Shown: positions 1 to 56,478 of the stretch, one piece after another
Layout of the letters: each line of letters begins with the position of its first letter
How positions within the stretch are numbered: the first letter of the stretch is position 1
Assembly (NCBI GenBank): GCA_950075865.1
Contig: CATMVA010000006.1
Coordinates: forward strand, 62,001-126,000
DNA length: 64,000 nucleotides
Direction of reading: 5' to 3'
Source of the DNA: an uncultured Oscillospiraceae bacterium
GTDB taxonomy: Bacteria > Bacillota > Clostridia > Oscillospirales > Oscillospiraceae
Made by a program: the position numbers and the translations under genes
Notes under the pieces: model-generated
The model's database searches: none
Told to the model about the DNA's origin: nothing
Seen by the model: the letters and a program-made list of their open reading frames with translations, nothing else

Positions 1-405
1 GCCGCGGTGGAGTGGATCTGCTTCGGCCCCAACTCCTTCAACGCGGCCCTGCCGGTCTATGCCAACGTGGAAAAGCTGCCCGACTACCTCACCAAGACCA
101 CCCCGGAGGTGGACACCGGCACCTTCTACTGGGCCTCCCGGCTCATCGCCGCCATGGCGGACAACAACTACGGCGCCTGCATCCAGCTGGTGGAGCGGTA
201 TCAGGGGGCCATCGCCAATGGGGGAAGCCGGCTCATCCACGAGTACGACCAAAAAATGCTGGAGGCCGGGAAATTCGATCTTCTGGACGAGGCCAACAGG
301 AAGCTCTGCGAGCTGGCAAAAAAAGAGTCCACGGACGCCATCGGCAAGGTCCTGCATCAGGCCAGCCTGGCCATGAAGTGCAACTACAACCGGGCGGACA
401 ACTGA
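1..405 (+). CDS. C69-family dipeptidase, 3' part only
   Basis: The gene enters from the left edge, so only the last 134 residues are visible and no start can be assigned. The text WICFGPNSFNAALPVYANV, followed by a helical C-terminus ending MKCNYNRADN, is typical of the C-terminal third of peptidase family C69 (PepD-like Ntn-hydrolase dipeptidases). The nucleophile Cys would lie upstream, outside the window. These enzymes cleave a broad range of dipeptides in the cytoplasm or at the surface. The assignment rests on remembered family resemblance of this C-terminal block. It is followed directly by a decayed peptidase gene. Confidence 0.7.
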   Translation, partial: AAVEWICFGPNSFNAALPVYANVEKLPDYLTKTTPEVDTGTFYWASRLIAAMADNNYGACIQLVERYQGAIANGGSRLIHEYDQKMLEAGKFDLLDEANRKLCELAKKESTDAIGKVLHQASLAMKCNYNRADN

Positions 406-451
406 GCCCCATAAAAAAGTCCTCCGGCCCCTGCCGGCCGAAAAACAAGAC

Positions 452-1015
452 GGTATCATCCCGGATTTTTACAAACGGGCGCTGGAGCTGCGGGAGGAGA
501 CCGTCGAACACCGCCGCTGGCTGCACAGCCACGCGGAGGTGGGCCTGGTGGATATGCCCAAGGCCCAGGCCCATGTCATGGAACAACTGAAGGCTGCCGG
601 TCTGGACCCCCGGCCCTGCGGGCACGGCGTGACCGCCGAGGAGACCTTTGAGGGGGCCAGGGATATGATCGCGAACGGGATCCTGGAGGGTGTGGACGGG
701 ACCATAGCCTATCATTTGGGCTCGGGCAGGATGCCGGTGGGGCTGTTTATGTACAACAGCGGCGGGACCATGATGTACTCGGTGGACGGCTTCCGTCTGA
801 CGGTCCGCGGCATCTCGGCCATCGCCTCCGAGGATTTTGCCACCGTCGCCGAAAAGGAGCCCAGCGTGTTCATGTATCTCTCAGCAGGGTATCTGGATGA
901 ACGGGGCGACGCCCCCGCCCACAATCCCAAGGTCCGGTTCAATGAGGAGGTCTGCCCCATTGGCTCGGCCTGCTTGGCCCACTGCGCGGTCCGGTGGCTG
1001 GAAGGGCGCTCATAG
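452..1015 (+). pseudogene. M20D-type amidohydrolase/aminoacylase remnant with internal deletions
   Basis: The frame is open from about 404 to the TAG at 1013-1015 but has no convincing start; similarity begins near 461 (DFYKRALELREETVEHRRWLH). The N-terminal helix of M20D amidohydrolases (HSHAEVGL...GHGVTA) runs straight into EGARDMIANGIL, so the metal-binding block with its HxCGHD motif is missing. Later VDGFRLTVRG joins ISAIASEDFATVAEK directly, so most of the dimerisation domain is also gone. About 190 residues remain of an expected 390. It cannot bind the catalytic metal pair and is best read as a relic. It sits just outside the left end of the mobile element. Confidence 0.75.
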
Positions 1016-1091
1016 GGCAAGGATTTGCCGGCGCCCTGGCACCAAATTGGCACCAGGGACGCGCCGCAAGGGAAAACCAAAGAAAAAGCAA

Positions 1092-1123
1092 AACCCCGTA
1101 ACCTTTGCGGTTACGGGGTTTTT
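1092..1123 (+). terminator. Rho-independent terminator beside attL
   Basis: A perfect 12-bp stem (AACCCCGTAACC / GGTTACGGGGTT) with a five-base loop is followed by a T run. It lies immediately outside the left 45-bp tRNA-Thr repeat. Before integration it would have been the terminator downstream of the tRNA-Thr gene. Confidence 0.8.
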
Positions 1124-1125
1124 GT

Positions 1126-1170
1126 TGGAGCTGCTACCCAGATTTGAACTGGGGACCTCATCCTTACCAA
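1126..1170. repeat. attL: 45-bp copy of the tRNA-Thr 3' half
   Basis: These 45 bases are identical, in the same orientation, to 18336-18380, the 3' half of the intact tRNA-Thr from the encoded CCA to the anticodon loop. After 1170 the tRNA sequence stops and unrelated sequence begins. This is the distal attachment site made when the element inserted into the tRNA gene. Confidence 0.92.
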
Positions 1171-1311
1171 CTCACGCACCTGGAATTTTTGTTGTTTTTC
1201 TTATCGTATCTCAATGCCACCAATCCTTGCTTGCCCAATGATCGATGTGTTTTCTCTTCGGCCCTTACCGTATCTTTTGGTGGGCTGTTGTGGGCCCACT
1301 TTGTGTGTCGA

Positions 1312-1329
1312 TGGCGGTTTTTTGGCGGG
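1312..1329. repeat. Subterminal repeat, left end of element
   Basis: TGGCGGTTTTTTGGCGG occurs here, about 140 bp inside attL, and again in the same orientation at 18237-18253, about 85 bp inside attR. Each copy itself contains two GGCGG units separated by a T tract. Subterminal repeats of this kind are candidate arm-type binding sites for the integrase or excisionase; that role is inferred from position. Confidence 0.55.
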
Positions 1330-1354
1330 TTAAATTTGCCCTGAAATCTTCAGC

Positions 1355-2365
1355 TCACGGCTTCAGACGCTTTACGTTTTCGGTCAGCTCATCCACATCG
1401 TCTGTGGCTTCCAACGCCCGGCGGTGGGCATCGTACAACTCGTACTGCTCCAGGGCCAGCTTTTCGGCTTCCTCACGCTTCACCGTACCCAGATTCTCCA
1501 GAACCTCTCTACCGTTAAAGCGCAGAAACTCACCCAGCTTGACTTCCCAATCAGACATATGCATGGGATTGTGGCCCTTTGCTTGCAGTTCTGCATAGTC
1601 CAGATACATATTCACGATCAGATTCAGCGTGCTGATCTCCTCGTGGGACATATAGTTCTTGGCTATCGTCACATCGCCCCGGCGCACCTTGGCACCCTTG
1701 TATGCGGTCAGTCCCATGTTGTCTTTTGTGGCATCGGCACGACCTGCGATCAACTCCGGCGCCGTGTGGCCGGTGGCCGCATACTCCAGCTTGTTCTGCA
1801 CAGATTTGAAAAAGGTTTGGGCAGCCTCGCTGTTGCTGTCATAGTCCACCGAGAGGGCAAAAATGTCCTTCACCTTCTGATAGATCCGCTTCTCACTGGC
1901 CCGAATATCCCGAATACGCTCCAGGAGTTCGTCAAAGTAATCCGCCCCGAATTCCTTGGGTTCCCGCAGGCGCTCATCATTGAGGACAAAACCCTTTTTC
2001 ATGTACTCCGTAAGGACATTGCTGGCCCACCGGCGGAAATGGGCGCCCACATGGCTGCGTACCCGGTAGCCAACGGCCAGAATCATGTCCAAATTATAGA
2101 ACTTGGTATCCCGCTTAACCTCACGACCACCTTCAGTTTGAACTTGTAAGTAATTTTTACAAGTTGCCCCCTCGTCCAGTTCTCCATCCTCATAGATGTT
2201 CTTGATATGCAGGGTAATGTTCTGCGGTGTCACCTGGTACAATTCGGCCATGGAGCGCTGGGTCATCCAAATCGTGTCCGCTTCGAAGTAGACATCGATC
2301 TTGGTGTCGCCCTTCTCATTCTGGTAGATCAGAATTTTTCCGGTGTTCTGCAATTCATTGTCCAT
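1355..2365 (-). CDS. RhuM family protein
   Basis: The 336-residue protein has the order typical of RhuM (virulence RhuM) proteins: ADTIWMTQRSMAELYQVTPQNI near the N-terminus, then YNLDMILAVGYRVRS and FRRWASNVLTEYMKKGFVLND, then a helical C-terminal half. The start at 2365 is chosen because GGAGGA lies about 9 bases upstream; an upstream in-frame ATG would sit on top of that site. RhuM proteins are common cargo of pathogenicity and defence islands, and their biochemical role is not established. Here it is the first gene inside attL and has a higher GC content than the four genes behind it, so it may be a separate acquisition. Confidence 0.85.
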   Translation of the reverse strand: MDNELQNTGKILIYQNEKGDTKIDVYFEADTIWMTQRSMAELYQVTPQNITLHIKNIYEDGELDEGATCKNYLQVQTEGGREVKRDTKFYNLDMILAVGYRVRSHVGAHFRRWASNVLTEYMKKGFVLNDERLREPKEFGADYFDELLERIRDIRASEKRIYQKVKDIFALSVDYDSNSEAAQTFFKSVQNKLEYAATGHTAPELIAGRADATKDNMGLTAYKGAKVRRGDVTIAKNYMSHEEISTLNLIVNMYLDYAELQAKGHNPMHMSDWEVKLGEFLRFNGREVLENLGTVKREEAEKLALEQYELYDAHRRALEATDDVDELTENVKRLKP

Positions 2366-2416
2366 AAGCAACATTCCTCCAGGGGGCATTTTGTATTTAT
2401 TGGGGGCCTCCAATAT

Positions 2417-3034
2417 TTATCCCTTGGTTAAGGTAATCCATTTCTTTTCTGTCTTTACTTCTCCAAGAGACCAACAGCGTTCTATATCCATAAGATGAAA
2501 TTTGTGAATTCCATTCTTTTCATCAAAATAAGTCATAATAAGCGCATCAAACTGCTTTTTATCTCCTGGAACATCTGCCTCTTTTAACATATACTCTAAG
2601 TCAAATCGGCAGGCGCCGTTTTCTGGAATTACAAAAGTATAGGCGCCTTCATTCCCCAGCAAAATTGCATCATCATCACCAATACGTTGGATTTGTGTGA
2701 AGGTGGCAACTTCCTCTTCTCCTAAGTACGCATGCATACTCAAGTCCCGAATAATGCGTGAAATCCCACACGTATTTATTATATCAATCCAAAGCGGAAC
2801 TCTCATAACCAGTCCATCAGACATTCCGCTTTTATAACAGCCACAAGCCGAGTTAATGCTCCCTTTGGAATGTACTATTCTCGCATACAAAGACACTTCT
2901 CCCGCTGCCTGCAACTTCTTAGCCAGATAAGTAGAGCCGATCGCTGCTAAAGCACCAATTAAGGCGCCCAAAAGCCCTATGGCCCCAGAAACAATAGTGC
3001 TTTGTAGCTCAGGCGATAAATTTTCAAAACACAT
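2417..3034 (-). CDS. Hypothetical membrane-anchored protein of Abi-like block
   Basis: This 205-residue protein has one predicted transmembrane helix near the N-terminus (GAIGLLGALIGALAAIGSTYLA, residues about 17-38). A soluble, beta-rich domain follows, probably cytoplasmic. The start at 3034 follows an AGAGGGA ribosome site and overlaps the end of the upstream 82-residue gene by about 11 bases, suggesting translational coupling. No family is recognised. It belongs to a low-GC run of four genes (2417-4788) headed by an Abi_C-like protein, so a membrane effector or sensor role in that module is possible but unproven. Confidence 0.6.
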   Translation of the reverse strand: MCFENLSPELQSTIVSGAIGLLGALIGALAAIGSTYLAKKLQAAGEVSLYARIVHSKGSINSACGCYKSGMSDGLVMRVPLWIDIINTCGISRIIRDLSMHAYLGEEEVATFTQIQRIGDDDAILLGNEGAYTFVIPENGACRFDLEYMLKEADVPGDKKQFDALIMTYFDEKNGIHKFHLMDIERCWSLGEVKTEKKWITLTKG

Positions 3035-3272
3035 TTTGCTGTCCCTCTTTGGCTTTTTCCATGTGTTTTTGAAAAAAGTCAAATAAAACGGCGCAAAACT
3101 CCATATTGGCAGCATCTTGATAGCCCGGGTCGATTTTATCAAGGCTATCAAGAAAATCCTTTAATTTATGGGTGCTATCCAGCACTTGCATAACTTGGCT
3201 CTTATGGTACTGCTGTTGAGCCTGTTGCTGAATATAGTTATAGTTCCACATATTGTAGTAAAGCGGATTCAT
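3024..3272 (-). CDS. Small hypothetical protein, Tyr/Gln-rich N-terminus
   Basis: The protein is 82 residues long and starts MNPLYYNMWNYNYIQQQ; the start at 3272 follows GGAGGT at good spacing. The N-terminal 25 residues are rich in Tyr, Asn and Gln. The rest is predicted helical and acidic, ending FFQKHMEKAKEGQQNVF. No family is recognised. Its 3' end overlaps the following membrane protein gene, so the two are probably co-translated. Confidence 0.6.
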   Translation of the reverse strand: MNPLYYNMWNYNYIQQQAQQQYHKSQVMQVLDSTHKLKDFLDSLDKIDPGYQDAANMEFCAVLFDFFQKHMEKAKEGQQNVF

Positions 3273-3343
3273 GGTTTGTACCTCCATTCATTATGGGATT
3301 ATATTGTAGTTTGTAGGCCAAGTTGCTGGCAACCAACCCAAAC

Positions 3344-3814
3344 TTACAAATCTAAAGCTTCCATAGCATAGGGTAAGTATTGTACGAGAGATTTTTCTGC
3401 TAAATATATAACTGCATCACTCTTTCCCTCCGGCGATGGGTAAGACTGTGCAAACCATTTACGAACATTAGTAAAATATTTCTTTGAATTTAGCAATTCA
3501 GTTCTGTCAGTATATTCATCGTCAATCAATCTGCGGAGATTACTAATGCCGTCATATTGCGAAAGCTCTCTTCCATAGTCCATCAGCGCTTCAATATCAA
3601 GAATCGCTTCATAATCAAGCTGATTTAGGTAATTTCTTAACTCATCCTCTGCTTGATCATACTCGCAGGATTCTGGCGTATCTTCATATTTGAATAAATC
3701 ACTCGCCCCAATTGCTCCTGACGGAAAGTATTTGTCCATAAAATTTGTGTGAGCAGCTTGCTTCTTTTGAGAGAGCTGAATAATATCAAGAAGTTGATTC
3801 TTTGTAACTATCAT
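3344..3814 (-). CDS. DUF3775-like hypothetical protein
   Basis: The protein has 156 residues and is helical and acidic. The segment NYLNQLDYEAILDIEALMDYGREL resembles the core of DUF3775 proteins (a helix ending in ALM-x-x-GR). The match is remembered, not computed. The gene starts 23 bp downstream of the Abi-like gene stop (3838) and shares its low GC content, so the two are probably in one operon. No enzymatic motif is visible. It could be a partner or inhibitor in a defence module; nothing in the sequence proves it. Confidence 0.55.
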   Translation of the reverse strand: MIVTKNQLLDIIQLSQKKQAAHTNFMDKYFPSGAIGASDLFKYEDTPESCEYDQAEDELRNYLNQLDYEAILDIEALMDYGRELSQYDGISNLRRLIDDEYTDRTELLNSKKYFTNVRKWFAQSYPSPEGKSDAVIYLAEKSLVQYLPYAMEALDL

Positions 3815-8639: not shown

Positions 8640-9404
8640 TTAACTGGCCTCTGCCAGATCAGGCATCAACTCGGCAGCGTTCACACTGTCCATGAACTGC
8701 CTGGCATAGGCCCTGGCGTGTTCGGCCTCCTGAGGGCTGAGCAGGCTCACAGCCTCGAAGTTGAACAGGGCGTAGGGCTTTCCGCTCTTGCTGGTAGCCT
8801 TCTCCAAGGAGATCTTCGTCACCACACTGTTCACCGGCACCAGATTTCCCGCCAGCCGAGCGGTGTACTTGAGGAACCGGGGCTTACTGGTGACAGGCAC
8901 CCGCACCAGCAGGGGCAGCACATTCCCCGGCCGGAGGAGGAACAGCAGCACCGATTCCTTACAGGCCTTGGCGTTGCTCTCGCCGTCCTTGCTGCCAAAG
9001 TCATTGTAAGGGCAGCTAAAGCAGGCCTTGCCATCGTGGGAAACGATGCTGTTCTGGCTCATACAGACCGGCGGCGTACCCTCCACCGGGTCAGGAGTGT
9101 CCCAGTAAGCCCTGGGCGTGGTGTAGTCCAGAATGATCCCGGTCAATTCCTTCTCTGCCTCCTCTCCGGTGAGGCCCGGCACGGAAAACACGGTGGCGCC
9201 GCCCGAAGGGGACTTGACCACATCGAAGAGCTGGAGGGACAGGGGCTGGTTCTTCAGGTTTTCCCGGATCACGTCCAGGGCATTGTTGGAAAGGGCGGCA
9301 TAGCCAGAGCTGACCGGCGCTATCGAAGCCGCAGGAGAAGAAATGGGCTCCTGCATAGCCTCCACTTTGTCGCCCAAACGGTCTTTCAGCTTTGTGGTAT
9401 CCAT
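8640..9404 (-). CDS. Putative single-stranded-DNA binding/annealing partner of YqaJ
   Basis: The protein has 254 residues and no signal or membrane segment. A central motif CMSQNSIVSH...CFSCPYNDFGS...CK (about 113-148) resembles Cys-containing proteins found beside YqaJ nucleases in phages and mobile elements. The rest is beta-rich (LPLLVRVPVTSKPRFLKYTA; KPYALFNFEAVSLLS). The four cysteines may bind zinc. Its position immediately after the nuclease gene (12 bp) suggests the annealing or ssDNA-binding half of a two-component recombinase. It is not a recognisable RecT or Erf protein, so that role is inferred from context only. Confidence 0.5.
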   Translation of the reverse strand: MDTTKLKDRLGDKVEAMQEPISSPAASIAPVSSGYAALSNNALDVIRENLKNQPLSLQLFDVVKSPSGGATVFSVPGLTGEEAEKELTGIILDYTTPRAYWDTPDPVEGTPPVCMSQNSIVSHDGKACFSCPYNDFGSKDGESNAKACKESVLLFLLRPGNVLPLLVRVPVTSKPRFLKYTARLAGNLVPVNSVVTKISLEKATSKSGKPYALFNFEAVSLLSPQEAEHARAYARQFMDSVNAAELMPDLAEAS

Positions 9405-49347: not shown

Positions 49348-49392
49348 TGGCAGGGGCAGAAGGACTCGAACCCTCGGCACGCGGTTTTGGAG
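49348..49392. repeat. 45-bp tRNA-Trp 3' fragment, left copy
   Basis: Read on the minus strand it runs from the anticodon loop (CTCCAAA, anticodon CCA) through the T arm to the encoded CCA end of a tRNA-Trp. The 5' half is absent. It is identical to 56280-56324 and resembles an attachment-site scar. Diverged but related sequence follows both copies (for example TTGATGCTATG at 49488 and 56423). Confidence 0.85.
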
Positions 49393-49502
49393 TGGATGCG
49401 AAAAAGACATTGCGCCGCAAGACTTTCCGCTCGTTTCAACGGCTTACCAGGTTTTGCGGATTTGCTTTCTCGGAAGGTGATACTTTTTTGATGCTATGTG
49501 CT

Positions 49503-49688
49503 TTATTGAGCCGTCCTCCGCACAGGATTCACCCGTCTGAACTTCAGCGCTTGCTCCGGAGTAGTCTCCGGGCAGTCTTCATCAAAAGCAATGGGCAAAG
49601 TTTTGGCCCTGTTCAGTTCATCCCGCTCCTTTTCCGTAAAAGCCAACTCCTCAGGTAATTTGGAAAAGCGATCAGTTGTACTTGCCAT
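49503..49688 (-). CDS. BrnA-like antitoxin remnant
   Basis: The protein has 61 residues. FDEDCPETTPEQALKFRRVN matches the linker region of BrnA antitoxins, but the usual ribbon-helix-helix DNA-binding domain after it is missing. The start at 49688 follows AAAGGGGG. It lies 37 bp downstream of the BrnT-like toxin gene, in the usual toxin-first order. It may be a short natural variant or a truncated antitoxin. Confidence 0.55.
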   Translation of the reverse strand: MASTTDRFSKLPEELAFTEKERDELNRAKTLPIAFDEDCPETTPEQALKFRRVNPVRRTAQ

Positions 49689-49725
49689 AATAAAGCCCCC
49701 TTTCAAAGCTTGTTGCCAACCGGGC

Positions 49726-50079
49726 CTAAATCAATCTCGTGACCTTCACTGATTTTCCCTCTTGGGAAACCATCTCACGTTCCGTATAGACCACAGACAA
49801 AATATCATTCAAGGCATCCCCTGCGCCGTTTAAATTCCCAATAATCGTCAGATTCCCCGCAGAGGTGTCCCCGATAGTGTTATAGCGATCTTCCTCCTTA
49901 CTATGCTCCTCATCAAACATCTCGATTCGGTCATAGTCAAAGAATATCCGGGCGGCGGTCACAAAAGAAATTCCATGTTTCTCAACATTCTTCCGATTTT
50001 TCTCCTCGTCATACTCAAAAAGCATGTCGCCCAAAGAGAATCGAATCAATCTTTCCTCTGAAGTCACTGCCCTCACCAC
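49726..50079 (-). CDS. BrnT-like toxin, C-terminally shortened
   Basis: The 117-residue frame contains the BrnT pattern FEYDEEKNRKNVEKHGISFV, DEEHSKEEDRYNTIG and LSVVYTERE. BrnT toxins are RelE-fold ribonucleases that stop translation. The usual end (R-I-I-S-A-R plus about 10 residues) is cut to VTRLI, so a catalytic Arg and the last strand may be lost. The true start may be the ATG of MLFEYDEEK at residue 19. The pair is probably inactive or weakened. Confidence 0.65.
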   Translation of the reverse strand: MVRAVTSEERLIRFSLGDMLFEYDEEKNRKNVEKHGISFVTAARIFFDYDRIEMFDEEHSKEEDRYNTIGDTSAGNLTIIGNLNGAGDALNDILSVVYTEREMVSQEGKSVKVTRLI

Positions 50080-50101
50080 CTTTTCCTATCTCCTAATATG
50101 A

Positions 50102-50458
50102 TTATAGCATACCCGGCCGCTCATAAAAAGAAAAAATTTCTTCTCGCACATACGCCGTCAACAAAGCCAGAAATCTCGCGTTGGTAGGCCTCTCCCTCAG
50201 CGGCACCGGGAACATCCGGGGCAGCACTTCCGGAGCAGCTCTCCATATTCGGGAGACTCCCAAACGTATCCCCCGCTCTACTGCTGCCGTAGTCGTCCTG
50301 TGCTTCTTTGCCACATCAGGATAGATCAGCTTGGTAACAAAACACAGCCTTTCCGGCTCCTCCACCGCCAAACACACGGCATCCATAATATAGAAAAATC
50401 CGGTGTAGTTTTCGGTCAGCCCCAGCCGGTAGAGCAGTGTACAAACCTTGTCCCTCAT
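50102..50458 (-). CDS. Orphan Spo0A C-terminal-type DNA-binding protein
   Basis: The protein has 118 residues and no receiver domain. LYRLGLTENYTGFFYIMDAV, VTKLIYPDVAKKHRTTTAAV then ERGIRLGVSRIW, and RPTNARFLALLTAYV follow the Spo0A C-terminal helix order, including the recognition helix before ERGIR. Spo0A needs phosphorylation of its receiver to bind DNA; a free effector domain could bind or interfere constitutively. Its start overlaps the XRE gene stop (ATGA). Confidence 0.85.
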   Translation of the reverse strand: MRDKVCTLLYRLGLTENYTGFFYIMDAVCLAVEEPERLCFVTKLIYPDVAKKHRTTTAAVERGIRLGVSRIWRAAPEVLPRMFPVPLRERPTNARFLALLTAYVREEIFSFYERPGML

Positions 50459-50790
50459 TTCCAGAACTTCTTCAAAATAGCCTTTACATGAACCACGTCG
50501 TCTCTGTCTTCCGCAGACAGGCGGGCAAAGCTGTCAAAACAGGTCATAATACTGAGAAGCAGCTTGGGCTGTGCCTCCGAATACTCTTCGCCGGTCAAAG
50601 AGCTCAGAGGAAGTCCAAGCTGATTCGCAATATGGAGCGCAGTGCGAAGGGTGGTATCGCCATCTTTGCTCAGAATGTCCTGTATGGTAGATTTTGGGAT
50701 GTCCAGTTCTTGAGAAAACTCCGACAGGGTCAGGTTCTTCATCTCCCAGATCGTTGACAGATTTGATGCAAATTTATGACAGGCATACAT
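50455..50790 (-). CDS. XRE-family regulator paired with the Spo0A-C protein
   Basis: The protein has 111 residues. An N-terminal helix-turn-helix (MKNLTLSEFSQELDIPKSTI with QDILSKDGDTTLRTAL) is followed by a helical tail. It is translationally coupled to the Spo0A-C gene. Upstream lie two 15-bp direct repeats at 20-bp spacing (50846-50880), suggesting autoregulation. Confidence 0.85.
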   Translation of the reverse strand: MYACHKFASNLSTIWEMKNLTLSEFSQELDIPKSTIQDILSKDGDTTLRTALHIANQLGLPLSSLTGEEYSEAQPKLLLSIMTCFDSFARLSAEDRDDVVHVKAILKKFWK

Positions 50791-50933: not shown

Positions 50934-52574
50934 TTAGATGGGCAGGGCCTCCGGGGCAGCGGTCTTTTCGGCCGGGGCCCGGTCCCCGATGCGGAGGACC
51001 GAGTCGAACCGGGAGAGGTAGTCCTCCGACCAGTTGTGGGTGATGACGATGCGGGTCACATCGTGGCGGTCAAAGATGAACTGGTCGATGAGGTCCACAT
51101 TCTCCGGGTCCAGGCCGGTGGTGGGCTCGTCGAAAATCAAAATAGCCGGATGGGACCGCAGTGCCCGGGCGATGTTGATCCGTTGGCGCTCCCCACCCGA
51201 GATGTTGTCCCCGAAATCTCCCAGGGGAGAATCCCCCACCCGGGCCGCCAGGGCGGTGAGGTTCAGATCGGCCAAAAGTTTTTCATACTCCGGGGCGTCC
51301 TTGGGCGGGTTATTAGTAAACATGGTGATGTTCTCGTAAAGGGAGGCGTTGAACAGGAAGGGGGACTGGCTCACCAGGCCTACCACCCGGTAGATCTCGT
51401 CCTCGCTGAGCTCCCGGATGTCCTGGCCCGCCAGGGTGATCTTCCCTTCGTAATCGTCGTAGTATTTTAGCAGCAGCTTGGTCAAAGTGGACTTGCCGCT
51501 GCCGCTCTCGCCCAGGATGGCATAGCAGCCGCCGGGGGCGAAGGAGCAGGAGAGATCCTTGTAGAGCTGCCGCTCCCCGAAGCCGAAGGAGACATTCTCA
51601 TAGACGAGGCTCTGGTCCCCTGCGGGCATCAGCCCGCCGTCCACCGGGCAGGGTACCTCGGTCTCGGCCTTCAGCTTCTCTACCAAGGGCTTGGAGGCCC
51701 GGAAGTCGACGACGTATTCCATTAGGTTGGAAAGCTCATTGGAAAGGGTTGTGACATAGCGGAGGGCTGCAATCAACGAGGAGAGCGCAATCACACCGCT
51801 CACGGCCAGATACCCGCCGATGAGTTCACAGGCTATATTGGAAACATCAGCCGAAGCCCATAGGGCTGTCACGCTGAGACAATTCACAGTAAGGGAGCGC
51901 ACATGTGACTTATCCTTCTTGGCTCCAAAAAACCGAAACCGTTTCAGGGTGGGATTGGCTCCGTCAGAGCTGCGAATGGCTTCAATCCCCTCGACCGTTT
52001 CCTTTAGCACATGGGAGTATTCCTCGGCCGTTTGAGAAACCTGCTTCCGGCATTCCTGGGTCTTTTTTGTAAAAAGATTGGAGGTCAGAAGAGGGACGAA
52101 CGCACAGATGATCCCCACTCCGCAAAGCCAGGGGTGGACCCGGTACAGCATAAAGGCTGCAAACAGGATACTTCCGACCCCGGAAACAATATACGGAATG
52201 TTGGCCAGCCAGTTGTTGCGGTAGATGTCCATATCCGCCCCCAGAAGGTTCAGATAGTAGGCATCATCATGATTACGAAGGAGCTGAAGCGGGCGGGACA
52301 GGATATTTTTCATGATTTTGTTTCGTAGGTTGGCAGTCCCGTTGGCCAAAAAAGTGAAATGGACCACATAGGTCAAGATGCGTAAAGGGTAATAGAGGCA
52401 GGAAACAACTACACTGACCAACAGGGCATGGAGAAACAGCTCCATACTACCCTGCTCAATCCCAGCCAAGACCCGAGAATATATATAGGTGAGAAAGGTG
52501 AGAAAAACGCTGAGAAGCAGAGAGAGAAGACAGGTCAAGAGTAAAAGTCCAAAAAATTTTTTGGTCCGCATCAT
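50934..52574 (-). CDS. ABC exporter, fused permease-ATPase, of the peptide cluster
   Basis: The protein has 546 residues. Six membrane helices fill about 1-290. The ATPase has Walker A ILGESGSGKSTLTKLLLKYY, signature NISGGERQRINIARAL and Walker B ILIFDEPTTGLDPENV. There is no N-terminal C39 peptidase, so it would export but not trim a leader. It lies downstream of the precursor and maturase genes, behind a hairpin, and is the likely exporter of the mature peptide. Confidence 0.88.
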   Translation of the reverse strand: MMRTKKFFGLLLLTCLLSLLLSVFLTFLTYIYSRVLAGIEQGSMELFLHALLVSVVVSCLYYPLRILTYVVHFTFLANGTANLRNKIMKNILSRPLQLLRNHDDAYYLNLLGADMDIYRNNWLANIPYIVSGVGSILFAAFMLYRVHPWLCGVGIICAFVPLLTSNLFTKKTQECRKQVSQTAEEYSHVLKETVEGIEAIRSSDGANPTLKRFRFFGAKKDKSHVRSLTVNCLSVTALWASADVSNIACELIGGYLAVSGVIALSSLIAALRYVTTLSNELSNLMEYVVDFRASKPLVEKLKAETEVPCPVDGGLMPAGDQSLVYENVSFGFGERQLYKDLSCSFAPGGCYAILGESGSGKSTLTKLLLKYYDDYEGKITLAGQDIRELSEDEIYRVVGLVSQSPFLFNASLYENITMFTNNPPKDAPEYEKLLADLNLTALAARVGDSPLGDFGDNISGGERQRINIARALRSHPAILIFDEPTTGLDPENVDLIDQFIFDRHDVTRIVITHNWSEDYLSRFDSVLRIGDRAPAEKTAAPEALPI

Positions 52575-52660
52575 ATTAATCCTCCGTCAAAATTGGCTTA
52601 TAAAAAAGCAGAAAGCAATATTACAGCAAGAACTAAATTCTTCTTGATAACTATGATGGG

Positions 52661-52700
52661 TTGAAGGTGCCACACTATGATTGCCGTGTGGCACCTTCAA
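52661..52700 (-). terminator. Attenuator between precursor and exporter genes
   Basis: A perfect 15-bp stem (TTGAAGGTGCCACAC and complement, loop of 10) lies 11 bp after the precursor stop. It should raise precursor mRNA over exporter mRNA, as often seen in peptide biosynthesis operons. Confidence 0.75.
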
Positions 52701-52711
52701 TAGTAAAAACA

Positions 52712-52873
52712 TTACTCTTTCGGAGTGGTGCCGCAGCTACCAGGACCTATGGCACCCACGCAACCATTCGGGCTACCACACCCAGCCGCCATCTCTTCGG
52801 CAAGCTGGTCCTCTACATCAGTAATTTCTACTGGCAACCGTGTCAGCTCACTCTTCAACAGCTCTTTCAACAT
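52712..52873 (-). CDS. Three-cysteine RiPP precursor peptide
   Basis: The peptide has 53 residues; AAAGGAGGG lies seven bases upstream of the ATG. The leader (1-30) is helical and acidic: MLKELLKSELTRLPVEITDV then EDQLAEEMAA. The core is Gly-rich with Cys32, Cys38 and Cys47 (GCGSPNGC, VGAIGPGSCG, then TTPKE). It sits 53 bp after the radical SAM/SPASM gene and is short enough to be missed by gene finders. Thioether formation from the cysteines (ranthipeptide or sactipeptide type) is the likely modification. Class inferred from the maturase and Cys spacing (C-x5-C-x8-C). Confidence 0.8.
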   Translation of the reverse strand: MLKELLKSELTRLPVEITDVEDQLAEEMAAGCGSPNGCVGAIGPGSCGTTPKE

Positions 52874-52926
52874 AGGGGTCCCTCCTTTCTGCCACCATTA
52901 GATGGCGAATATATCGACAACAGACA

Positions 52927-54267
52927 TTAAGTCTGTATGTCTTCTTCGCTTTGCTGTTTTTCCTTGGCCAGAGCAAGAAATTGCGTCTTGTAATATAAAC
53001 GCATATCCTCGCAAGTCCCTTTGCCCAAATTATTAGAATTGTTTGAGAGAAGTATAGATGCAGCGCATACACGGCAAATAGCTTTTAGCCAACAATCATT
53101 ACACGCAGAATTCAGAAGTTTATGGGATGGGGCAAGTTTTTTCCTTGCAATTAGGTAATTGTTAAAATCAAACGACTTCCCATCAAAGCGTGCAATCAAA
53201 AATTCTGAACATCCAACGAAGTGATGACACGGGTATATTTCTCCATTTGGAAAAAGAACTATCAGATAGTTCCCAGCACCACAGGATAAATCACAGAAAC
53301 TATGCCTTGACAACGCTCTGCGTAACTGTATACTTTGTAATTTGCACTGACCCTCATCCCTTCTTTGATTGTTACTATACTTACAAACTAAGGAATCATC
53401 ATAGCCGTTATATGAACACTCTTCAATCAAAACATCTTTACCATTTACGCCGAAATATTTCTGAAGATATTGGCGAATATCTTTAGAGGAATATTCCAGC
53501 TCCTGATGAAGAGAAGTGTATGTAACTTCTAATGCTTTAGGTGGATTTTTCACTTTCTGAAGAAGCCGAATTCCTCGTTCAATTTTGGCAAAAGTTCCAT
53601 TCCCGGCTTTGTCTACCCGGAGCTTATCATTGATTTCCGGAGGGCCGTCCACACTGACCGTGACCCGAATATTGTACTTTTGGATGGTCTGGGCCAACTC
53701 CTCATCGATTAAAGTTCCGTTGGTCACCATAGTGAAAATAGGCATTTTCTCTATAAGTCCCAAGGAACTGTATTGCTCAAAAAATTCGCAGATAGTCCGG
53801 ATGGTATCGGGGGCAATGGTGGGCTCCCCGCCAAAGAGCATGACAACATCGACCGAAATATACCGTTCAGAAAACAAGGCCCGGAGATACTTTTTTGCTG
53901 ACTCTGGGGTGAGCACCTGAGATTCGCAGTCATAGTCCCCGCCGTGGGCATAGCAGTACCGACAGTTCAGATTGCATTTATTGGCCACCATAATTTCCAA
54001 CCGTCCCAGAGTGCGGGTCTCCAGCAGATTAGTATATTTCATCATGGGCAGGTCAGGTTTGTCGGCAAAGGATCGCTCCACATACCCCTCAAAGGCTGCC
54101 CGATCCTCCTGGGACAGTCTATCCTCCAGATAGTCCTGCCACACCTGTTCCATGACCTGAGCGTGGCGGGGCGTTGTGGTGGATACCGCTCCCTTGGCCG
54201 GATAATAGACCACCCCGATCTCCTCATCGTGGGTGATCATCAGGGAATCCTTTTGCAGCTTAGACAT
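52927..54267 (-). CDS. Radical SAM/SPASM peptide maturase
   Basis: The protein has 446 residues. The N-terminal 90 residues are a peptide-recognition-like region (GVVYYPAKGAVSTTTPRHAQ). The SAM cluster motif is CNLNCRYC (Cys98, 102, 105), followed by FGGEPT. The SPASM domain holds Cys325, 329, 347, 353, 389, 392, 398, 401 and 419, enough for two auxiliary iron-sulfur clusters. Such enzymes make Cys thioether or carbon-carbon links in RiPPs. Its start overlaps the end of the JAMM-like gene by 8 bp and its gene precedes the precursor. Confidence 0.92.
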   Translation of the reverse strand: MSKLQKDSLMITHDEEIGVVYYPAKGAVSTTTPRHAQVMEQVWQDYLEDRLSQEDRAAFEGYVERSFADKPDLPMMKYTNLLETRTLGRLEIMVANKCNLNCRYCYAHGGDYDCESQVLTPESAKKYLRALFSERYISVDVVMLFGGEPTIAPDTIRTICEFFEQYSSLGLIEKMPIFTMVTNGTLIDEELAQTIQKYNIRVTVSVDGPPEINDKLRVDKAGNGTFAKIERGIRLLQKVKNPPKALEVTYTSLHQELEYSSKDIRQYLQKYFGVNGKDVLIEECSYNGYDDSLVCKYSNNQRRDEGQCKLQSIQLRRALSRHSFCDLSCGAGNYLIVLFPNGEIYPCHHFVGCSEFLIARFDGKSFDFNNYLIARKKLAPSHKLLNSACNDCWLKAICRVCAASILLSNNSNNLGKGTCEDMRLYYKTQFLALAKEKQQSEEDIQT

Positions 54268-54758
54268 GACATGGCTCCTCCTTTCCGGCGTATTGCCGGA
54301 TCATATTGCTTGTGTCACAGAGCAGAATACTCTGTCCGTTTGTCACCAAAAACAGGCAAGGACTTTTTAACCCCCGATCGATGGCCACTTGGGAAAACCG
54401 GTCCATAAAAATCTGATCTTTTGGGGAAAAAATCACCGGCTCCTCTGGGCAAAGGTTAGGTGCGTGGGTGTGCAGAATAACCGGGATCAATTCCCGCTTG
54501 ACACACAGTTGGATCAGGGCCAGGCTGACCTTTCGGGGGACGGTGGACCGATTTTGCCCTGTGCTTCCCCCCCATCTCCTCCACCGCACAGGAATCAAAG
54601 AGCTCATAAACGGCTTCCCCTGTTTTCCTGGCCATTGCCAGCACACAGTGCTCCTGCTCCCCCTCCCTCTCCGCTTGCTCACAAAGGGCAGCGACCACGC
54701 CAAGCTTATCCAGAAGGACTGTCCGGGTTTCTTTTTGCCGGAATATATATTGTTCCAT
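54260..54758 (-). CDS. JAMM/MPN-like protein, interrupted by a frameshift at a G7 tract
   Basis: From the ATG at 54758 (GGAGGAGG six bases upstream) the frame reads MEQYIFRQKETRTVLLDKLG to VEEMGG. There a run of seven G (54567-54573) shifts it to an early stop at 54456. In the neighbouring frame the protein continues STGQNRSTVPRKVSLALIQL to HTHAPNL...FSPKDQIFMDRF and stops at 54260, overlapping the maturase start by 8 bp. The HxH...S-x-x-D pattern resembles JAMM metallopeptidases, although the spacing is longer than usual. Removing one G restores about 165 residues. A leader-peptidase role is speculative. Confidence 0.6.
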
Positions 54759-54783
54759 TTTGGGCCTCCTCCCGGACTCTCTT

Positions 54784-54812
54784 TTGACAAATACTGAACT
54801 TTTTGGTATAAT
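54784..54812 (+). promoter_or_regulatory. Consensus sigma-A promoter of the RRNPP-type regulator
   Basis: TTGACA and TATAAT are separated by exactly 17 bases, 38 bp before the ATG at 54850. The palindrome ATTGATCAAT follows at 54824-54833 and lies between the divergent genes. Confidence 0.9.
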
Positions 54813-54849
54813 TGCGGTGCGAATTGATCAATGAATAAGGGGCGGTATT

Positions 54850-55791
54850 ATGAAGGAACTGCGTATCGGCGAGGTCATTCAGAACCGGCGGAAGGAGCTG
54901 GGGCTGACCCAGGCGGAGGTATGCGAAAATATCTGTGAGCCTATGACCCTCTCCCGTATTGAAAACGGGAAGCAGGCTCCCTCCTACAACCGGGTGAAGG
55001 CCATTCTTCATCGGCTGGATCTGCCCGATGACCGGTATACCGCCCTGTTGGGCGAGGACGAGCTCAAGCTGGAGAACCTGAAACGGGAGGCCAGCGCCAA
55101 GGAAAATCTTTTCTGGGATGCTTCAGCCGAGGATCGGCCCAAACGGCGGGAGGAAGCTCTGGCGGCCATCCAGGCCTTGGAGGAATTCGCCGGAGAGGAC
55201 CATCTGACCCAACAGTTTATTATAGGACTGAAAGAGACGCTGGGAAAACCAGAAGGTCCTTATTCTCTGGAGGAAAAGCTGGAGCTTCTCATGGGTGCCA
55301 TCCGTATCACCCGGCCCAAATTTGACCTGGATGAGATCAACGACCTCCGGTACAGCAAAGAGGAAATGGCCCTTATCATCCGGATTGCCAACGCCTATTC
55401 TCTAGCCGGCGAAAAGCGAAAAGTCCTTGACATTTATGCTCAGATGGTCAAGTATGCCCGGAAGCACGGCTGGGACCAGCCCCGGTATGCCGGCAATCTG
55501 GTGGTGATTTTGAACAACTACGCCCGGGAGCTGAACATTGACAAGCGGTACGAGGAGGCCCTGGAGATCGCGCAAATGGGCTGGAGTATTGCCATTAAAT
55601 ACCATGATTATTGGTGTCTGGGAAGTCTCCTGTCCAGTCAGGCCAATTCGTATGCGCATTTGGGTGAAACCGAGAAAAGCAAGGATCTCTATTATCAGAC
55701 GCTCTATCTTTACAAAGCCTTGGGGGATCAGGATGGAATCACCCACCTAAAAAACGATGCCAGGGACACACTTGGGATCGAATTGGTTTAG
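54850..55791 (+). CDS. RRNPP-type (Rgg/PlcR-like) HTH-TPR regulator
   Basis: The protein has 313 residues. Residues 6-65 are an XRE helix-turn-helix (GEVIQNRRKELGLTQAEVCE and LSRIENGKQAPSYNRVKAIL). The rest is helical with TPR-like repeats (NNYARELNIDKRYEEALEIA; SSQANSYAHLGETEKSKDLY). This build is that of PlcR, Rgg and ComR, which bind imported signal peptides. It diverges from the RiPP operon and probably controls it. A small exported peptide gene converges on its 3' end. Confidence 0.85.
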   Translation: MKELRIGEVIQNRRKELGLTQAEVCENICEPMTLSRIENGKQAPSYNRVKAILHRLDLPDDRYTALLGEDELKLENLKREASAKENLFWDASAEDRPKRREEALAAIQALEEFAGEDHLTQQFIIGLKETLGKPEGPYSLEEKLELLMGAIRITRPKFDLDEINDLRYSKEEMALIIRIANAYSLAGEKRKVLDIYAQMVKYARKHGWDQPRYAGNLVVILNNYARELNIDKRYEEALEIAQMGWSIAIKYHDYWCLGSLLSSQANSYAHLGETEKSKDLYYQTLYLYKALGDQDGITHLKNDARDTLGIELV

Positions 55792-56006
55792 CCGAGATCC
55801 GTTTCCCCTCTGGGACCTTTTGGATCATCCTGAGGCTCCAGGGGCGGCTCGGGGTCCTTGGGGCCGTCGGGGTCAAGGGGCTCCAGCGTAATCACAGGGG
55901 GCGGAGTGGGGATGGGCTCCTTGGCCTGACAGACCACCTTGGGTCCGGCGGTCAGCAGAGAAAGGCAAAGGATCAGGGACAGGAACATAGCCGAGAACTT
56001 TTTCAT
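55788..56006 (-). CDS. Small exported proline-rich peptide, candidate signal
   Basis: The protein has 72 residues. A Sec signal (MKKFSAMFLSLILCLSLLTA) is followed by an acidic, Pro-rich tail (PTPPPVITLEPLDPDGP) ending GPRGETDLG. AAAGGAGGG precedes the ATG. The gene overlaps the regulator's stop by 4 bp tail-to-tail. Its export signal and position make it a candidate pheromone precursor for the RRNPP-type regulator; it could also be an unrelated secreted peptide. Confidence 0.6.
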   Translation of the reverse strand: MKKFSAMFLSLILCLSLLTAGPKVVCQAKEPIPTPPPVITLEPLDPDGPKDPEPPLEPQDDPKGPRGETDLG

Positions 56007-56279: not shown

Positions 56280-56324
56280 TGGCAGGGGCAGAAGGACTCG
56301 AACCCTCGGCACGCGGTTTTGGAG
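56280..56324. repeat. 45-bp tRNA-Trp 3' fragment, right copy
   Basis: Identical to 49348-49392. Here too the tRNA 5' half is missing. About 100 bp of diverged but recognisable similarity to the left copy's flank follows, including CCGCTC-TTTCA and TTGATGCTATG. The 155 bp up to 56479 hold no gene. Confidence 0.85.
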
Positions 56325-56478
56325 CGGATGTGGGGAAACTATTGGCGCGCAGTGCTTCCCGCTCATTTCAGCCGCTTGCGGGCTTTGGGGCTTTTCTTTG
56401 TGCTTGCTTTGATGCTTTATTGATGCTATGCGCCTAACTCAGTCGCAACGCCTTGCTCTTAAAGTACCTCTACTTTCC

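Follow-up and report, generated by a model that had tools for sequence, protein, structure and literature searches.

The 64,000-nucleotide stretch analyzed here (the window; uncultured Oscillospiraceae bacterium, GCA_950075865.1, contig CATMVA010000006.1, positions 62,001 to 126,000) contains a gene cluster for a ribosomally synthesized and post-translationally modified peptide (RiPP). It combines a radical S-adenosylmethionine (SAM)/SPASM maturase, a short cysteine-containing candidate precursor, an ABC exporter and a JAMM-like gene with a divergent RRNPP-type regulator and a small gene predicted to encode a secreted peptide. The best explanation, with a probability of roughly 60%, is a radical SAM RiPP (RaS-RiPP) cluster carried on a mobile element integrated at tRNA-Trp and working by the mechanism proposed below. 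The cluster probably makes a cross-linked peptide, with a secreted signal peptide in control, and the product is probably antagonistic or signalling. The locus is marked by this gene content, by attachment repeats, by an integrase-bearing relative, by a conserved leader and by a divergent core block. It would work like a streptococcal quorum-controlled RaS-RiPP cluster, yet its maturase lies below the cut-off of each of the best 25 curated maturase models; it is best regarded as a rare new form of quorum-linked RaS-RiPP cluster, unusual in its mobile setting and its mosaic.

The sole close relative found is L005, a 10.5-kb contig from an Oscillospiraceae metagenome-assembled genome from water deer, of the same genus as the window, which holds every cluster gene in the same order and is taken as the same record as G200:C193. 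Distribution figures come from genome samples and pattern scans, and the counts include the window's own genome. The maturase occurs in 1 of 200 sampled family genomes (its own), in 2 of 16 genus genomes (its own and G200) and, at E 1e-45, in 2 of 394 order genomes (its own and the distant G465, 231.7 bits). Its N-terminal 88 residues are found in 1 of 391 class genomes and the JAMM-like protein in 1 of 300 family genomes, in both cases the window's own. A scan of genome contigs returns two loci, L005 and a remote one at 26%; viral contigs give no match, and phage and plasmid records give only matches below 60% identity. Megablast of the whole element against phages yields only a 59-base match, located in the repeat at 56280. 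The G465 cluster, with its remote maturase, two ABC genes and no precursor clear by eye, was set aside as a relative.

The candidate precursor is a 53-residue open reading frame (ORF; MLKELLKSELTRLPVEITDVEDQLAEEMAAGCGSPNGCVGAIGPGSCGTTPKE) preceded by a strong ribosome site (GAAAGGAGGGACCCCT), with its cysteines arranged as C32-x5-C38-x8-C47. An earlier note, made from the sequence of this DNA, had described exactly this gene, and its position, ribosome site and cysteine pattern are borne out; ORFs and profile matches likewise confirm the SPASM maturase, ABC exporter and divergent HTH-TPR (helix-turn-helix, tetratricopeptide repeat) regulator placed around it. As a chance event the frame is moderately surprising only: dinucleotide shuffling of the 352-nt spacer yields a comparable ORF (Shine-Dalgarno-led, at least 40 residues, at least two cysteines in the last 30) in 47 of 2000 trials. 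It is credible as a precursor because of synteny rather than these statistics, since the corresponding site in L005 encodes a short peptide, and the two leaders are identical at 15 of 32 positions (E 3e-9 as a single comparison). The note had expected a similar cysteine peptide beside close maturase homologues; the L005 peptide satisfies this in its leader, but core and cysteine spacing differ (GCGSPNGCVGAIGPGSCGTTPKE in the window, GAGVFCGGNCTDPIG in L005). With two cysteines in the L005 core (C35-x3-C39), C-x5-C-x8-C is not a class or family signature. A C-G-x(1-2)-N-x(0-1)-C unit is present in both cores, which, from two sequences, is a hint only. A hairpin follows the precursor gene in the window (z -5.86), and L005 has one at the equivalent position together with a T tract (z -8.14), an arrangement consistent with a high yield of precursor relative to exporter, which is common in RiPP operons. 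That the maturase acts on some other peptide, the 53-residue ORF not being its substrate, would accord with the shuffle frequency and the unconserved core but is very improbable, given the leader kept in L005, the strong ribosome site and the hairpin directly after the gene in both copies.

The maturase carries both the CxxxCxxC motif and the SPASM cysteines of radical SAM/SPASM RiPP enzymes. Both copies share the motif (C98/C102/C105), and L005 likewise has cysteine at seven later positions (C329, C347, C389, C392, C398, C401 and C419); which of these count as SPASM cysteines is our assumption. Pfam Radical_SAM matches the window protein at E 1.7e-21, and no SPASM match appeared in its Pfam scan. 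The best NCBIfam model for both copies is PapB (NF047865), at 165.8 bits (1.4e-48) in the window and 170.8 bits (4.4e-50) in L005 against a cut-off of 340, followed by SCIFF (TIGR03974; 123.9 and 134.6 bits, cut-off 425), while the GggB (streptosactin) model gives 117.2 and 116.6 bits against 650; the scores thus stay short of PapB-type, SCIFF and GggB-type sactipeptide maturases alike. Of the models matched (81 with an E limit of 1, 73 with a limit of 0.01), none of the best 25 for each copy reaches its cut-off, so that a new maturase subfamily is a fair reading; this is the outcome of the comparison with radical SAM families that the earlier note had called for. The best PDB match by sequence is 5wgg (E 1.2e-29). 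In a Foldseek search with the poor structure model of the maturase, 5why and 5wgg, both of which we take to be CteB, rank first at a template modelling (TM) score of ~0.33, consistent with a SPASM enzyme and no more. Residues 10-67 of this low-confidence model form three strands followed by two helices, presumably in keeping with a RiPP recognition element, though not proof of one.

The nearest maturase model belongs to the PapB ranthipeptide system, whose cysteine-based thioether chemistry (PMC9413430; NF047865) would fit here, although the window and L005 maturases score about half of the cut-off. Neither core carries the repeated Cys-x3-Asp/Glu of PapB-type substrates. SCIFF maturases (TIGR03974; 5wgg, 5why) are the best solved-structure relatives by sequence, but the precursors here have three or two cysteines rather than six, as had been recognized for the window core, and the maturases fall under the cut-off. 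It is possible, though unlikely, that the same cluster instead forms sactipeptide-type alpha-carbon thioethers, as GggB does for streptosactin, or other links. The GggB, CcpM and RumMC models also match the maturases, the core is Gly-rich, and the exporter matches the streptosactin exporter GggC at 128.4 bits, though its best NCBIfam model is NHLM_micro_ABC1 (166.8 bits); PapB nevertheless leads in both copies by the margins given above, and the two cores give no acceptor rule. The earlier suggestion that the class may be new is not supported: the three-cysteine pattern that prompted it is not conserved in L005, the two best models are both thioether maturases, and linkage chemistry is not readable from sequence.

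The regulators of the two copies are 85% identical and combine HTH_3 with an RNPP-type TPR receptor; the L005 protein matches RNPP_C at 28.9 bits (cut-off 26.5), and PlcR is the nearest solved relative and best PDB match for the HTH part. The regulator promoter, TTGACA-17-TATAAT, is kept in L005 except for the spacer base next to the -10 element. Convergent with the regulator, and overlapping it by 4 nt at the 3' ends, lies the 72-residue gene, a candidate gene for a small propeptide with predicted secretion, so that the HTH-TPR regulator of the earlier note can be refined to an RRNPP-type receptor with a convergent secreted-peptide gene. Eight sibling regulators, from the 5 of 300 family genomes with a match (the window's own included), bring the set to 10. 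A convergent signal-peptide-like ORF, counted if ending within 10 nt of the regulator stop with any start allowed, accompanies 7 of the 10 regulators versus 3 of 102 further long ORFs from the same regions (Fisher 3.7e-7; controls were mechanical, non-overlapping ORFs of at least 200 residues, with those within 500 bases of a stretch end dropped). Given this enrichment, an RRNPP receptor-propeptide pair is a well-supported prediction. A stricter start rule gives 5 of 10 regulators against 3 of 102 controls. No maturase is found by tblastn in the seven stretches with sibling regulators.

Sibling regulators at L030:8026-11311 and L031:8305-11229 stand beside ABC exporter genes, again with no maturase by tblastn in the 17-kb stretches, and this regulator family may control other peptide systems. 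A further stretch, L034:3697-5642, contains a tandem pair of RRNPP-type regulators, the second of which adjoins a single convergent secreted-peptide-like gene.

The cluster is flanked by attachment repeats at 49348 and 56280, absent from the earlier note, which contain the tRNA-Trp 3' end and match over 116-nt and 36-nt stretches, both 78% identical. An intact tRNA-Trp lies 2.4 kb past the window end, beside an open integrase, and the invariant core over seven attachment sites is CCCTCGGCACGCGGTTTTGGAG. In L005, an integrative element of ~8.7 kb has direct repeats of the tRNA-Trp 3' end at both ends (~1-138, where the contig starts inside the repeat, and ~8728-8878, where the tRNA end is reduced to its 22-bp core) and, between them, the cluster along with genes for an integrase (383-1780), an excisionase-like protein and an HTH_36 protein; beyond the element lies a second integrase. 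The window copy has the repeats and lacks the integrase. Blastn detects no counterpart in the window of L005 bases 251-3535, which carry the integrase, excisionase-like and HTH_36 genes, so that the window copy looks like a deletion derivative, mobile only in trans.

The JAMM-like gene is a single frame in L005 (4890-5375) but is broken in the window across ORFs 54456-54758 and 54260-54790, which part at a poly-G run (54567-54573, minus strand); an assembly error, a slippage switch or decay are all possible. The earlier note had listed the gene among the parts of the cluster, and its view of the locus as a complete RiPP system stands for the radical SAM/SPASM cluster with a cryptic cysteine precursor, whereas completeness is doubtful because of this frameshift. 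Together with the missing integrase, it suggests a decaying or trans-dependent copy in the window strain. The stronger claim, a dead remnant from which nothing is made in this strain, is a serious possibility but not the favored one: the unmatched L005 region and the two JAMM frames speak for it, while the maturase, precursor, exporter, regulator and secreted peptide all retain open frames, the neighboring element retains an open integrase, and the poly-G position of the break makes assembly error or slippage possible.

The integrase family extends beyond the two copies. The integrase query matches 3 of 16 genus genomes at E 1e-80, and a related integrase adjoins tRNA-Trp in G000, G203 and L037 (the last from IMG/VR); L036 also has one, and ARAGORN found no tRNA in the stretch of it examined. 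The G203 integrase is 91% identical and lies at tRNA-Trp with a relaxase-like gene. No relaxase was noticed among the ORFs listed for the RiPP-bearing elements, for which no profile search for relaxases was made, and an Rfam scan found only two tRNAs, at 18.3-18.5 kb. Integrative and mobilizable or cis-mobilizable elements at tRNA genes are a known kind, and the RiPP-bearing elements resemble them in tRNA 3'-end repeats, tyrosine integrase, excisionase-like gene and tandem arrangement.

Sister elements carry different cargo. In G203 (L016:1-11590), an integrase of the same family and the relaxase-like gene accompany a gene like the HTH_36 gene of L005, and the cargo presumably consists of arabinose-use genes. 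From window position 56280 to G000:C6:128359 runs a second tRNA-Trp element with its own open integrase (L008:865-2115) and a cargo that we take to be a beta-glucoside phosphotransferase system (PTS) operon.

A codon-by-codon alignment of the window with L005, read in 50-column windows, reveals a mosaic. Protein identity in the maturase is 80-92% up to column 250 and 30-60% beyond, and in the exporter 32-68% up to column 300 and 79-98% beyond. Change points fall at codon 267 of the maturase and codon 284 of the exporter, neither equalled in strength by any of 500 shuffles, and the regulator has none (154 of 500 as strong). The 1.74-kb block between them comprises the maturase C-half, the precursor and the exporter membrane half. 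Amino-acid identity is 196/461 inside and 461/521 outside, fourfold sites (in codons that agree in their first and second base) differ at 58 of 76 positions inside versus 85 of 217 outside (Fisher 2.5e-8), and GC content at third codon positions is 0.49 and 0.41 versus 0.71 and 0.69. Raised synonymous divergence and sharp edges therefore favor replacement over selection alone, and replacement of the block as a unit would be a fitting account. Fast diversifying selection in place, with no recombination, is improbable: the block does end at positions that make functional sense, rapid evolution is frequent in such genes, and within the block a 98-nt stretch (maturase end, ribosome site and leader start) stays 78% identical, but fourfold sites are also more diverged inside, third-position GC differs and the edges are sharp. 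The 98-nt stretch implies that the leader was held by selection or that exchange occurred in more than one piece. More speculative, and on present odds doubtful, is an exchangeable 1.7-kb cassette of core, core-facing SPASM half and exporter membrane half, which recombination would swap in one piece while the flanking leader-recognition half, exporter ATPase and regulator stay fixed, which would make this a mobile quorum-controlled locus built for specificity switching.

In the proposed mechanism, the 72-residue secreted peptide would be exported, processed and re-imported and, at sufficient amount, would lead the RRNPP regulator to turn on the divergent operon. The N-terminal region of the maturase would hold the precursor leader, and its radical SAM/SPASM part would link core cysteines to neighboring residues, most likely by ranthipeptide-type thioethers; a Cys-Asn link is a specific guess from the unit common to both cores. 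The JAMM-like protein, in which HTHPSG and SxxD residues, presumably those of the JAMM motif, are visible, may trim the leader; the Pfam matches of the exporter include no peptidase domain. The product would leave through the ABC protein, and the mobile element would spread the cluster between strains. The specificity block (the core, the half of the maturase that faces it and the membrane half of the exporter) could be exchanged whole, with leader recognition, ATPase and regulation left unchanged.

Several points weigh against this explanation. Besides the 98-nt stretch described above, the case for block exchange comes from one comparison, between two copies. The structure models are poor for the maturase (mean pLDDT 43) and useless for the JAMM-like protein (mean pLDDT 39), whose L005 copy scores 13.5 bits (E 0.066) against Prok-JAB with a cut-off of 25. 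The window regulator matches RNPP_C at 19.1 bits, below the cut-off, the convergent secreted ORF is missing at 3 of 10 regulators (5 of 10 by the stricter rule), and the 72-mer is only a candidate pheromone source. The excisionase-like protein of L005, at 26.9 bits, falls just under the HTH_17 cut-off of 27. No immunity gene was recognized among the genes scanned, and the evidence consists of sequence and models.

Several streptococcal Rgg/SHP (short hydrophobic peptide)-regulated RaS-RiPP clusters have an ABC exporter. Clusters of this kind include streptide, tryglysin, streptosactin, NxxC and others and, according to the available part of a review (PMC13361665), share with the window an RRNPP-class regulator, a small secreted peptide, a radical SAM maturase and a short precursor. 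The window differs in its Oscillospiraceae host, sub-cut-off maturase, JAMM-like gene, tRNA-Trp mobile element and block-wise divergence, and the same part of that review does not mention 'horizontal', 'mobile', 'integrative', 'recombination' or 'Clostrid'. RRNPP systems at biosynthetic clusters detected by RRNPP_detector likewise pair an HTH-TPR receptor with an adjacent secreted propeptide, here in the vicinity of a RiPP cluster; Oscillospiraceae is unnamed in the printed family list for its 196 clusters, in the part of the paper available (PMC10075063). Neither JAMM nor JAB is mentioned in the available part of a review of RiPP leader proteases (PMC10885120). Among the matches listed by title and opening lines of the abstract, from a literature set with few subscription journals, no such system appears for RRNPP-linked clusters, RiPPs on integrative mobilizable elements, JAMM in RiPP clusters, maturase-module exchange, Oscillospiraceae ranthipeptides or Rgg-linked bacteriocins on integrative mobilizable elements.

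Table 1. Features of the RiPP-bearing element in the window. The JAMM-like gene, maturase, precursor and exporter are listed here in order of position; they are transcribed in the order JAMM-like gene, maturase, precursor, exporter, all on the minus strand.
Feature	Position	Strand	Remark
Attachment-like repeat (second)	49348-49513	+	same orientation as the other repeat, 6932 bp apart
BrnA-like ORF, BrnT toxin, stand-alone Spo0A_C protein, XRE regulator	49503-50790	-	
ABC exporter, 546 aa	50934-52574	-	membrane + ATPase domains
Divergent block	51722-53466	-	maturase codons 268-446, precursor, exporter codons 1-284
Stem-loop, 15 bp	52661-52700	-	directly 3' of precursor gene
Candidate precursor peptide, 53 aa	52712-52873	-	leader ~1-30, Gly/Cys core ~31-53
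Radical SAM/SPASM maturase, 446 aa	52927-54267	-	
JAMM-like gene	54260-54758	-	two overlapping frames
Consensus promoter TTGACA-17-TATAAT	54784-54812	+	ahead of regulator
RRNPP-type regulator (HTH_3 + RNPP_C)	54850-55791	+	divergent from operon
72-aa protein, candidate pheromone precursor	55788-56006	-	hydrophobic signal-peptide-like N-terminus
Attachment-like repeat	56280-56445	+	tRNA-Trp 3' end (~46 bp) + flanking arm sequence

The genes at 49503-50790 are not seen between exporter and repeat in L005. At this end of the window element, beside the attachment repeat, a BrnT toxin gene (Pfam E 4e-16) and a BrnA-like ORF, the latter presumed from its position, occupy 49503-50079 and perhaps form an addiction module for the element. 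Also inside the element, a stand-alone protein with the Spo0A C-terminal DNA-binding domain (50102-50458, Pfam E 3.8e-25) lacks a receiver domain.

If block exchange holds in further copies, it would mark natural cut sites in maturase and exporter at which the substrate is changed while leader recognition and energy coupling are kept, a guide for work on peptide cross-linking enzymes. If true, the overall explanation would widen the range of quorum-linked RaS-RiPPs beyond streptococci to include gut Oscillospiraceae and would make them passengers of a tRNA-Trp element family; sister copies in that family, by the gene families we take them to carry, appear to bear sugar-use operons.

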